From: Paenibacillus pedocola
GTDB taxonomy: Bacteria > Bacillota > Bacilli > Paenibacillales > Paenibacillaceae
Length of the DNA: 64,000 nt
Direction: 5' to 3'
Assembly: GCF_031599675.1 (NCBI RefSeq)
Contig: NZ_CP134223.1
Span: 2,852,001-2,916,000, forward strand
Below the pieces are notes generated by a model. It made no database searches. It saw nothing but the letters and a program-made list of their open reading frames with translations, and had not been told where the DNA came from. The stretch's first letter is position 1, and every line of letters starts with the position of its first letter. Positions 2,846-46,932 of this stretch are shown here, one piece after another. A program made the translations under genes and the position numbers.

Positions 2846-3622
2846 TTGATCAGAACAGTTCATGCCAGCGACGTTGGCCGGGTACGTACCGTCAATGAGG
2901 ATTCGGTCTGGATCGGCACAACACGTCACGGTTATACCCTCGGCATTATTGCCGATGGAATGGGTGGACATTTAGCAGGAGACACTGCGAGCAAGCTCGC
3001 GCTGGAGACCATGCGCAGCACACTCGACGGGCTGCCGCCGGATCTTCCGGAGGAAGAGCTTAGAGAAGCGCTGTCGGCTGCCATAATGGAGGCCAACCGC
3101 ACAGTCTTTACCGAGGCTTCGCGCGACGAAAAGTACCATAACATGGGTACGACAGTGGTTGCTGTTCTACTTCAAGGGCCGGCAGGATATATTGGCCATA
3201 TCGGAGACAGCAGAGCCTATCTTGTTAAAGACGGTGCCGCAATTCAATTAACCGAGGATCATACGCTGGTCAATGAGCTGTTCAAAAACGGCCAGATCAG
3301 CCAGGAGGAGCTTGGCAATCATCCGCGCCGCAATGTACTGACTAGAGCGCTGGGGACGGATGCCGAGGTTAAGGCTGATTTGGCTCCCGTAAGCTTGTCC
3401 CTGGGGGAACTTCTGCTGCTGTGCAGTGACGGTCTGAGCAATTTCGTCAGCCAGGAGCATCTAGGCAAGGTTGCCGGAATTCATGAAATACCGTTAGAGG
3501 AAAGAGCGGATCGATTACTTCAACTGGCACTATTAGCCGGTGGCGGCGACAACATCAGCGTCGCTATGTTAGAACATCAAGGAGAGGCCGCTGTGCCCGA
3601 GACAAAGGAGTGGAATAGATGA
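2846..3622 (+). CDS. prpC: Stp1/PrpC family PP2C Ser/Thr protein phosphatase
   Basis: Metal-dependent cytoplasmic phosphatase that reverses phosphorylation by the adjacent PASTA kinase. PP2C signature elements are visible: NEDS near residue 17, the ADGMGGH metal-binding motif, GDSRAYL, and near the C-terminus CSDGLSNFVS and GGGDNISVAML. The TTG start follows GGGGTGAGGA. The stop overlaps the kinase start as ATGA (3619-3622), the classic phosphatase-kinase coupling of Gram-positives (PrpC-PrkC in Bacillus subtilis). Confidence 0.93.
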   Translation: MIRTVHASDVGRVRTVNEDSVWIGTTRHGYTLGIIADGMGGHLAGDTASKLALETMRSTLDGLPPDLPEEELREALSAAIMEANRTVFTEASRDEKYHNMGTTVVAVLLQGPAGYIGHIGDSRAYLVKDGAAIQLTEDHTLVNELFKNGQISQEELGNHPRRNVLTRALGTDAEVKADLAPVSLSLGELLLLCSDGLSNFVSQEHLGKVAGIHEIPLEERADRLLQLALLAGGGDNISVAMLEHQGEAAVPETKEWNR

Positions 3623-44776: not shown

Positions 44777-45376
44777 ATGTCTAAAACATTTCTGGAAGCT
44801 GTAGAAGCAAGACGTTCCGTATACGCCATCAGCAAAGAATCCCCGGTTTCCGATGCACAGATCAAGGATATTGTTGAAGCGGCGGTATTACATAGCCCAA
44901 CTTCATTTAACTCCCAAAGCTCCAGAGCTGTAGTTCTTCTGGGCGAACAGCACGACAAGCTGTGGGATATTACAGCAGAAACGCTTCGTAAGATTGTACC
45001 TACTGAGCAATTCGAAGGTACAGCTCAAAAGTTGTCTTCGTTCAAAGCCGGCTACGGCTCAGTATTATTCTTCGAAGACCAGACAGTCGTGAAGAGTCTC
45101 CAAGAGAACTTTGCGCTGTATGCTGATAATTTCCCGATTTGGTCTAACCAATCCTCCGGTATTCTGCAGTTTGTTGTGTGGACGGCATTTGCTGAAGCGG
45201 GTCTGGGCGCTTCGCTCCAGCACTACAACCCGCTGATTGACGACGAAGTAAAAGCAACGTTCGGAATTCCGGCCGAGTGGAAGCTGATTGCCCAAATGCC
45301 ATTCGGCAAGACGGTTACCCCTCCAGGGGAAAAAGAATTCCAGCCGATCGAAGAACGTGTAAAAGTGTTTAAATAA
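44777..45376 (+). CDS. Nitroreductase family FMN oxidoreductase
   Basis: 199-residue protein of the YdgI/HBN1-like nitroreductase group. FMN-binding features are EARRSVYAISKE near the N-terminus, HSPTSFNSQSSRAVVL, GILQFVVWTAFAEAGLGASLQHYNPL, and a C-terminal AQMPFGKTVTPPGEKEFQPI. It probably reduces nitro, quinone or related compounds with NAD(P)H. The start has GGAGGT about 9 nt upstream. The downstream terminator hairpin also carries the ribosome binding site of the next gene. Confidence 0.9.
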   Translation: MSKTFLEAVEARRSVYAISKESPVSDAQIKDIVEAAVLHSPTSFNSQSSRAVVLLGEQHDKLWDITAETLRKIVPTEQFEGTAQKLSSFKAGYGSVLFFEDQTVVKSLQENFALYADNFPIWSNQSSGILQFVVWTAFAEAGLGASLQHYNPLIDDEVKATFGIPAEWKLIAQMPFGKTVTPPGEKEFQPIEERVKVFK

Positions 45377-45397
45377 GCACATAACAGAAATGTTTAG

Positions 45398-45448
45398 AAC
45401 CTCCTTGATCAGGCTAAGTATAACTATAACCTGATCAAGGAGGTTTTT
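45398..45448 (+). terminator. Terminator hairpin that also contains the next gene's ribosome binding site
   Basis: Perfect 16-bp stem AACCTCCTTGATCAGG (45398-45413) / CCTGATCAAGGAGGTT (45430-45445), 16-nt loop, five Ts (45444-45448, two of them in the stem). The right arm contains AAGGAGG (45437-45443), exactly spaced for ATG 45452. Read-through mRNA would hide this site. GTTTAG (45392) and GGCTAA (45412), 14 nt apart, vaguely resemble a sigma-B promoter that would start inside the loop. Confidence 0.8.
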
Positions 45449-45451
45449 GTT

Positions 45452-45646
45452 ATGCCTTGGAACAAGGATGATTATCCGGACTCGCTGAAGAATTTCATGG
45501 CTCCCGTGCGCAACAAGGCGATTGAAATTGCCAATGCACTTTTGGAGGACGGCTATGACGAAGGGCGGGCGATCTCCATTGCTACGGCACAGGCCAAAGA
45601 ATGGGGCGAGAATCACGATAAACAAATCCGCAAGAAAAACACATAA
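45452..45646 (+). CDS. Small conserved protein (YdaT-like)
   Basis: 64-residue soluble protein, MPWNKDDYPDSLKNFMAPVR at the start, then an amphipathic helix and a charged tail. I recall similar MPW...DYPDS small proteins in Bacillus (YdaT, a general-stress protein); the exact family is uncertain. AAGGAGG is 8 nt before the ATG but lies inside the preceding terminator stem. No catalytic motif is visible. Confidence 0.75.
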   Translation: MPWNKDDYPDSLKNFMAPVRNKAIEIANALLEDGYDEGRAISIATAQAKEWGENHDKQIRKKNT

Positions 45647-45684
45647 TAGGACAATGATCTGATTGTAAGTCCAGCAGACAGCAA

Positions 45685-45713
45685 TCAGGCCCGGCGGAAT
45701 CCGCCGGGCCTGA
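45685..45713. terminator. GC-rich hairpin between convergent genes
   Basis: TCAGGCCCGGCGG pairs perfectly over 13 bp with CCGCCGGGCCTGA around the trinucleotide AAT. Neither side has a T-run, so it may stop transcription inefficiently or act as an mRNA 3' end stabiliser. Confidence 0.55.
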
Positions 45714-45726
45714 ATCATGTGCTTAA

Positions 45727-46932
45727 TTATTTAGTAGCAGGAGCTTCAGTTGCTGCTGCTTCTGCGCTAGCCTCAGGAGAAGCAGATGCTTCCGCTTTAT
45801 CCGTTAGCGTGTTAGTGATTTTAGCTTTGGCCGTCAGATCCTGGAGCCAAGTGGAAGACATTTCGGAAACCTTCTGCGAAATCAGTGTCTTTTTGATTTC
45901 GTCTTTCTTTTCTTCCAGCGTATATTCTTTTGCTTCTTTGCGGTCAGTCACTTTAATGACGTGGTAACCGTATTCGGTCTTCACAGCACCGCTGGTTTCT
46001 CCGACCTTAAGCTTAAAGGCGGCATCAGAGAACTCGGCAACCATGTCTGCCTTCTTGAAGAAGTCGAGATCCCCGCCTTTATCTTTCGAACCGGTATCCG
46101 AGGATTTCTCTTTAGCCAGAGTAGCGAAATCGGCACCGTCCTTAAGCTGTTGAACGATAGCATCGGCTTCCTCTTTTGTTGCAACAAGGATGTGGGAAGC
46201 GCGAACTTCTTCTTCCTGGTTAAAGGTAGCTTTATTTTCTGTATAGTAAGTTTTAATGTCTTCATCCGTCACCTTAACCTGCGGTTCAAGCAGCTTGCGG
46301 ATCTCAACCTGCAGCGGCATTTGCTCCTTAAGATCGTCCAGTGTCATCGAGCTTTGTGCCAATGCGGAATTCAGTGCCTCCTCACCGCCGAACTGGGTCT
46401 TTAAATCTTCAATCTCAGTATTGATATCTTCATCGGTAACGGTGATGTTGGCTTTCTTGGCTTCCTGATCTACGAGTGTAGTGGTAATCAGGTTTTGCAG
46501 GGTGGATTCACCACCGGCTTCAACAAGTTTATCATACAGCTGTGCTTTGGTAATGTCCGTACCATTTACGGAAGCTACCGCCGTACTGCTGTCATCTTTT
46601 TGGAATGGCGGTTTAATTAGTACAATAATCAGTGCTGCAGCGAGTACGATGGAAGCGATCATCCATCCTTTGCCGCCTTTAGAAGAAGGGGAGGAAGGAG
46701 GAGTGCTGCCGCCTACTTTGCTCATTACAGGAACACTTTCAGTTACGCCGCCTTGTGCAGGGACATCAGCCGGAATGTGAGCGGCTTCTTCTGTAGCTGT
46801 AACTTCCTGTACAGGAGCAGGTGCTGCTTCTGCATCAAGTGAACCTTCATTGTTGTTTACGGAAGGGGTAACCTCTTCCTGTGTTCCGTTGTTGCTTTGT
46901 TGCTCATTGCCTTCAAATTCTTTTTTGTCCAT
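45727..46932 (-). CDS. Membrane-anchored parvulin-type peptidyl-prolyl isomerase (PrsA/SurA-like)
   Basis: 401 residues. About 88 N-terminal acidic and Asn/Gln/Pro-rich residues precede a single helix (MIASIVLAAALIIVLI), then a SurA-like helical chaperone part and a parvulin domain (VRASHILVATKEEADAIVQQ to TEYGYHVIKVTDR). The C-terminus is Ala/Ser/Glu-rich. It has no lipobox, so it is tethered by a transmembrane helix with its long N-terminus predicted in the cytoplasm, unlike the PrsA lipoprotein. It probably helps fold exported proteins. The ribosome binding site GGGAG is rather far (12-13 nt) from the ATG. Confidence 0.85.
   Translation of the reverse strand: MDKKEFEGNEQQSNNGTQEEVTPSVNNNEGSLDAEAAPAPVQEVTATEEAAHIPADVPAQGGVTESVPVMSKVGGSTPPSSPSSKGGKGWMIASIVLAAALIIVLIKPPFQKDDSSTAVASVNGTDITKAQLYDKLVEAGGESTLQNLITTTLVDQEAKKANITVTDEDINTEIEDLKTQFGGEEALNSALAQSSMTLDDLKEQMPLQVEIRKLLEPQVKVTDEDIKTYYTENKATFNQEEEVRASHILVATKEEADAIVQQLKDGADFATLAKEKSSDTGSKDKGGDLDFFKKADMVAEFSDAAFKLKVGETSGAVKTEYGYHVIKVTDRKEAKEYTLEEKKDEIKKTLISQKVSEMSSTWLQDLTAKAKITNTLTDKAEASASPEASAEAAATEAPATK

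Follow-up and report, generated by a model that had tools for sequence, protein, structure and literature searches.

A candidate gate against upstream transcription in Paenibacillus pedocola: a predicted terminator hairpin overlapping a probable SigB-type promoter and the Shine-Dalgarno sequence of a small gene

Results and discussion

Organization of the locus

The window analyzed here, the whole stretch of 64,000 nucleotides from Paenibacillus pedocola (contig NZ_CP134223.1), belongs to a genome of 6.47 Mb assembled as one contig. Between a nitroreductase gene and an open reading frame (ORF) of 64 codons lies an inverted repeat able to form a stem of 16 Watson-Crick pairs, none of them mismatched. 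The features of the locus, all on the + strand, are as follows:

44777..45376: nitroreductase gene, 199 aa (Pfam PF00881, E 7e-23), whose message is predicted to end at the stem
45380..45390 with 45444-45454: possible outer pairing that includes the start codon (fold)
45392..45397: GTTTAG, SigB-type -35 element
45398..45413: left arm AACCTCCTTGATCAGG, made up of the 14-nt promoter spacer and the GG of the -10 element (sequence, fold)
45412..45417: GGCTAA, SigB-type -10 element, with its final four bases in the loop (GG.TA columns invariant in 35 of 35 aligned sequences)
45414..45429: loop of 16 nt (sequence), with a transcription start predicted near 45423-45428 from the position of the -10 element
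45430..45445: right arm CCTGATCAAGGAGGTT, with the Shine-Dalgarno (SD) sequence inside (sequence, fold)
45437..45443: AAGGAGG, SD sequence of the small gene
45444..45448: U-run of the terminator, within the SD-ATG spacer
45452..45646: small gene encoding a conserved 64-aa MPW protein of stress type and unassigned function (ORF list; matches in the genus)

On the 3' side of the hairpin, AAGGAGG is followed by TTTTTGTT and then by the ATG at 45452, which leaves an SD-ATG spacer of 8 nt (45444-45451), and GTTTAG and GGCTAA, separated by 14 nt, straddle the left arm. The original prediction of a perfect 16-bp stem with AAGGAGG in its right arm, 8 nt before the ATG, holds at every base. Two features go beyond it: the left arm consists of the promoter spacer and the first two bases of the -10 element, and an outer pairing is possible. 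The outer pairing was considered as a functional part and set aside: it is altered already in the near relatives L003 and L037 and is thus probably incidental.

The segment 45398-45470 folds with -32.2 kcal/mol (z -7.4; matched by none of 200 shuffles), and the cost of opening the region from SD to AUG has a z of 8.7 that none of 60 dinucleotide shuffles of the upstream DNA reached. In a ranking that relied on a crude gene caller, this cost was the second highest among 177 SD-led ORFs from 464 kb (the window and 20 pieces of 20 kb), and the top-ranked start, a TTG within a U-run, is probably false; opening costs alone were used, since the stem-length column of the ranking contained implausible rows. 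A 16-bp stem followed immediately by TTTTT has the form of an intrinsic terminator, namely a stable stem with an adjoining U-run, and the assignment of this stem as the terminator of the nitroreductase gene is, from its sequence, well supported. The hairpin is missing from our terminator scan because the scan accepts only loops of 3-8 nt. A search of Rfam returned nine matches at E values up to 1, none above its gathering score; one of them, to the L20 leader on the minus strand at 45676-45803 (33.3 bits, E 0.0003, gathering score 58.7), lies at the 3' end of a PrsA-like gene and is probably due to chance.

Conservation of the stem and the U-run

The 158 loci collected for the small gene contain 138 distinct upstream sequences, and all counts below refer to distinct sequences, not to independent events. 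The same nitroreductase gene lies upstream, with an SD sequence present, in 46 loci, and 69 loci with an SD sequence lie elsewhere; outside these two sets are three loci with truncated genes (L020, L173 and L174) and 20 without an SD-like motif. A stem was called strong when opening cost at least 12.5 kcal/mol and at least 5 SD bases were paired, and this classification was made without the GTTT/CCTCC pattern used below for selection. A strong stem over the SD sequence is predicted in 44 of the 46 nitroreductase-adjacent loci, the stemless ones being L009 and L151, and a T-run of at least 4 accompanies it in 42 of those 44 (hereafter the terminator-lid loci), the two without it being L142 and L146. 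Among the 69 loci elsewhere, where the opening cost has a median of 7.8 and a maximum of 16.3 kcal/mol, only four (L130, L017, L091 and L092) pass the stem criterion, and a T-run of at least 4 is present in two of the 69. In 44 of the 46 nitroreductase-adjacent loci, no more than 3 of 60 shuffles attained the opening cost. The 69 others lie near background (mean z 0.19; 10 of 69 at this level), and a lid as a general trait of the orthologs was accordingly rejected.

Several individual loci deserve mention. In statistics that used two long folds, the stem without a U-run is clear in L146 (z -4.1, 0 of 200 shuffles; 0 of 60 in a second shuffle test) and weak in L142 (z -2.2, 3 of 200; 3 of 60 in the second test). 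L009 gave 7.0 kcal/mol, hence no stem, in the classification versus 12.2 kcal/mol on a shorter RNA, and in L007 the nitroreductase gene reads as cut and the gap to GTTT is 148 nt. A pattern describing the whole element matched 40 of 100 genomes of the genus, and the reversed pattern matched none. The original prediction had named loss of the overlap in all relatives as a refutation; the overlap is kept in 42 of the 46 nitroreductase-adjacent loci, with covariation in the stem, and the refuting case did not occur. A second set of 36 loci, in groups of 18 (Cohnella-like), 13 and 4 with one locus ungrouped, gave combined p values of 0.06, 0.11 and 0.24 for the three groups. Within the Cohnella-like group, L204, L205, L206 and L208 have a lid-like stem over the SD sequence without a U-run (1-5 of 200 shuffles as high; group p 0.06).

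Covariation and phylogeny

An alignment of 35 sequences was picked by a pattern requiring GTTT, most of CCTCC, and GGAGGTTT, which means that its invariance is partly built in, while the -10 element and the inner stem lie outside the selection. In this alignment, 89.2% of cells pair (86.7% in shuffled alignments), 16 cells are changed on both sides versus 7.7 after shuffling, and the covariation score is 0.123 versus 0.089; none of 500 shuffles reached any of these three values, although kinship among the sequences can beat such shuffles without any structure. Two other measures, 4 pairs with double changes and 13 types of pair, did not rise above the shuffles, of which 188 and 172 of 500, respectively, reached them. 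When the partner was slid by one column, pairing fell to 49% or 60%. The five CCTCC/GGAGG pairs are intact in all 35 sequences, in part through the selection of the set, and open pairs occur at column 14 in 13 sequences, at column 15 in 7 and at column 20 in 19; such a firm stem base fits either function, terminator or lid. The arms thus vary with some compensation, and the promoter hexamers stay constant.

A tree of 49 nitroreductase proteins places L009 with all 42 terminator-lid loci in a single group of 43 (96/86). L142 and L146 group with the three loci carrying truncated small genes (group of 5; 99/95), and L151 sits on a long branch. With a root placed only by midpoint and L009 at an unresolved fork, the stem of L009 may have been lost or may never have been present. 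The stem without a U-run may be older than the terminator or may be a decayed terminator.

The probable embedded SigB-type promoter

The pair GTTTAG-N14-GGCTAA falls within the SigB-type form with -35 and -10 hexamers at 12-17 nt, the third base of its -10 element being C, not G. All 42 terminator-lid loci contain the pattern GTTT-N14-GG.TA, and in 32 of them GTTT lies 60 nt before the ATG. Neither GTTT, which is not part of the stem, nor the final four bases of GGCTAA, which fall in the loop, is needed for a terminator. Among the orthologs with an SD sequence outside the terminator-lid set, G[TA]TT-N14-16-GG[GC]TAA was found at 21 of 73, and 30 shuffling rounds each gave none. From this, the promoter appears to predate the hairpin.

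In the cited passages of PMC9847131, the SigB consensus is given as GTTTAA/GGGTAT and the Bacillales form as KTTTW-N12-17-GGGWAW, sigB, rsbV and rsbW are reported in Paenibacillus, and two B. subtilis promoters with a GGCTA -10 element are described, of which that of yaaI is SigB-dependent and that of ykaA is not. The P. pedocola genome itself contains an operon of an anti-anti-sigma gene (rsbV), rsbW and a sigma gene of SigB type. Its RsbW scores above the cut-off of NF003144 and below that of TIGR01924, and its sigma protein best fits SigBFG and Sigma_B (205 bits), below both cut-offs (234 and 315). GTTTCA-N14-GGGTTA precedes this operon, and GTTTGA-N13-GGGTAA precedes a gene for a YflT-domain stress protein. 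The promoter pattern gave four hits (one in the control), including one with no plausible ORF behind it and one before a 57-codon ORF without a Pfam match. In locus L023 of genome G000 (3060-3150, minus strand), the SigB-like promoter of the operon follows immediately after a terminator-like stem with a T-run.

The suggestion that the two hexamers resemble a sigma-B promoter is supported by their conservation, by the SigB-like promoters at other loci and by the rsbV-rsbW-sigma operon. Judged by its sequence, the embedded promoter is likely of SigB type, and we infer that SigB itself is the factor that reads it.

Predicted accessibility of the SD sequence in long and loop-started RNA

Across the 42 terminator-lid loci, the median cost of opening the SD sequence is 13.8 kcal/mol in the long RNA versus 4.4-4.7 kcal/mol in RNAs starting 5-11 nt past the -10 element; for a start 8 nt past it (median 4.7 kcal/mol), the cost is below that of the long RNA in 42 of 42. 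This agrees with the earlier proposal that a start in the loop would remove the left arm and free the SD sequence. Over the region from SD to AUG, the medians are 17.0 kcal/mol for the long and about 7 kcal/mol for the loop-started RNA, for which the values remain at 12-14 kcal/mol in L006, L007, L010, L145 and L147. The arrangement of the phage T4 gene e type, in which the SD sequence or AUG is paired in the long RNA and the 5' arm is missing from the RNA of the near promoter, is therefore predicted in all 42.

GTTT follows the nitroreductase stop codon at a distance of 6-22 nt in 41 of the 42 loci (148 nt in L007), which puts the start of the stem in these 41 at 12-28 nt after the stop codon. 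In E. coli, hindrance of a terminator by a ribosome was strong 5 nt past the stop codon and slight at 28 nt (cited passages of PMC4824070). The stem would accordingly lie in the range of ribosome hindrance, so that some read-through would be expected, and with it work for a lid. On these folding models, a lid function in cells is plausible.

The small protein and its relatives

The 64-aa protein has matches in 75 genomes out of 100 searched in the genus, with two or three fragments among them, and its nearest relatives in named genomes are those of Paenibacillus auburnensis (98%), P. ihuae (98%) and P. typhae (95%). Pfam gave no match for the protein, to DUF2188 (PF09954) or to any other family, and a search of solved structures found nothing better than E 0.098. 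A DUF2188 domain is present in two long orthologs, L016 and L131, after the shared N-terminal part. The B. subtilis homolog is presumably ydaT.

In L173 and L174 (G051 and G075), the promoter, the SD sequence and the N-terminal half are absent between the nitroreductase stop codon and the remainder of the gene, and in L020 (G013) the SD sequence and the N-terminal half are absent and the promoter region is kept. Proteins 68-77% identical to the small protein occur in part of the loci L101-L139 and in L114, in genomes titled as Bacteroidota genera or Calidithermus; this identity is unusually high for such a distance and is perhaps the result of horizontal transfer.

Proposed mechanism and rival explanations

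We propose that the 16-bp stem with its U-run serves as the intrinsic terminator of the nitroreductase gene, that its right arm also provides the SD sequence for the small gene, and that its left arm is the spacer of a SigB-type promoter starting in the loop. A polymerase arriving from the nitroreductase gene would transcribe both arms and mostly terminate, and any read-through RNA would carry the lid closed over the SD sequence. A polymerase from the embedded promoter would transcribe the right arm alone; lacking the left arm, its RNA would form neither terminator nor lid, the SD sequence would be open, and the small protein would be made solely from its own promoter. We give this combination of terminator, lid and embedded SigB-type promoter somewhat better than an even chance of being correct. 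Its architecture is well supported by the sequence comparisons, and the start in the loop, the termination and the relevance of the lid for residual read-through are what we infer from it. The original prediction had spoken of a promoter-specific translation switch; the overlap, the covariation and the promoter speak for its substance, but the word switch overstates the case, as the arrangement amounts to a gate that holds off transcription from upstream, with the promoter as its on-signal.

The stem could also be a terminator and nothing more, with its GGAGG-rich arm reused as an SD sequence in a short intergenic space and the SD sequence hidden without any selected effect, and we regard this as a real, if lesser, possibility. 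The U-run is retained in 42 of the 44 loci with a stem and conserved together with it, so that selection for termination alone could explain the stem; the strongest pairs lie at the stem base, as terminators require; and stems of the CCTCC..GGAGGTTTTT type abound in the genus (a pattern with an ATG after the stem matched 73 of 100 genomes), the ORF behind being shorter than 60 codons in 27 of 39 distinct cases outside this gene. A stem covering the SD sequence without a U-run in L146 (0 of 60 shuffles), and weakly in L142 (3 of 60), argues against it, as does the fact that read-through RNA, whenever made, necessarily carries the lid.

Sigma factors related to SigB have similar promoters, and the same gate might be operated by a SigF/SigG-type sporulation factor; two SigBFG matches in the genome (283.6 and 279.9 bits, above the cut-off) outscore the SigB-type one. 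We nevertheless consider such a reader improbable: the conserved GGnTAA is nearer to the SigB forms in the cited passages of PMC9847131 than to the SigF form, and ydaT, the presumed homolog, belongs to a published SigB gene set (cited passages of PMC7824861). The repeat covers the -10 element and the predicted start site, as an operator for a dimeric regulator would, but the inner arms change with pairing partly kept, which suits RNA pairing better than a fixed binding site, and a U-run accompanies the stem, making a DNA operator very unlikely. An RNA thermometer, in which heat would open the stem of the long RNA, has in its favor only the position of the SD sequence within the stem; at a computed mean unpaired probability of GGAGG of 0.005 even at 70 C, the stem is so stable that this explanation is scarcely credible and was dropped.

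Comparison with known systems

In the insertion sequences IS10 and IS50, read-through RNA forms a structure across the start region of the transposase gene, which is thereby protected against outside transcription, and in riboswitch and attenuator platforms a single stem both terminates and hides the SD sequence. The former differ from the locus described here in being mobile elements and are not known to have a terminator or a SigB-type promoter; in the latter, a ligand or a ribosome switches one transcript, whereas the present locus would select between two start sites. The cited passages of PMC8450116 and PMC4265352 do not describe the protection of the IS10 and IS50 transposase genes. In phage T4, the long RNAs of gene e (lysozyme), I-TevI and related late genes have a helix over the SD sequence and/or the AUG, and, as proposed here, a promoter at the helix starts RNAs that lack the 5' part and are translated (PMC3014915, PMC2988022). 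T4 differs in using phage late promoters, in contrast to an alternative stress sigma factor here, and the cited passages of these papers describe no U-run that would make the helix the terminator of the upstream gene. The Bacillales SigB regulon shares the GTTT-N14-GGnTA promoter, and the cited passages of PMC9847131 describe no member with its promoter inside the terminator of an upstream gene.

By this comparison, the principle is known from T4, and what appears new is its union with an intrinsic terminator at a chromosomal stress-type gene. We recognized no promoter inside a terminator whose arm is the SD sequence of the next gene in the literature covered, which comprised titles, abstracts and cited passages and left most subscription journals outside its scope. 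If the proposed mechanism is true, the choice of promoter would decide completion and translation of the message together, with three elements in about 60 bases, the lid of T4 late genes would extend to a chromosomal stress gene, and read-through RNA seen in transcriptomes need not give protein. Natural loci with a stem and a U-run, with a stem only and with neither could separate the terminator from the lid.

Related stems elsewhere in the genus

The looser pattern CCTCC..GGAGGTTTTT..ATG matched 73 of 100 genomes of the genus. From its list, 50 loci were examined, 20 of them picked by eye, which gave 39 distinct cases besides this gene: the 27 before ORFs of fewer than 60 codons and 12 before longer ones. 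Three cases that were folded (L283, L296 and L286) gave -22.2 to -26.9 kcal/mol. The stems of L283 and L296 lie ahead of tyrosine recombinases (PF00589), and that of L286 ahead of a protein with a putative P-loop-like motif, GPSTSGKST, read by eye. L263 has the same type of stem as L286 (genomes G050 and G040, respectively), a perfect 14-bp stem with AAGGAGG in its right arm, a U-run and an ORF of more than 240 codons; the L263 protein has no Pfam match. As these parts recur at unrelated genes, the hairpin may represent a class and not a single case, and we tentatively suggest, as a possibility that we consider the less probable one, that a terminator and lid with an alternative-sigma promoter in the loop is a device shielding chosen genes from the transcription of their neighbors.

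SD-in-terminator stems before tyrosine recombinase genes were seen in L283, L285 and L296 (G009, G113 and G102) and may protect these genes of mobile elements from transcription entering from outside. Just upstream in L283 and L285 lies a putative tRNA-like gene, read by eye.
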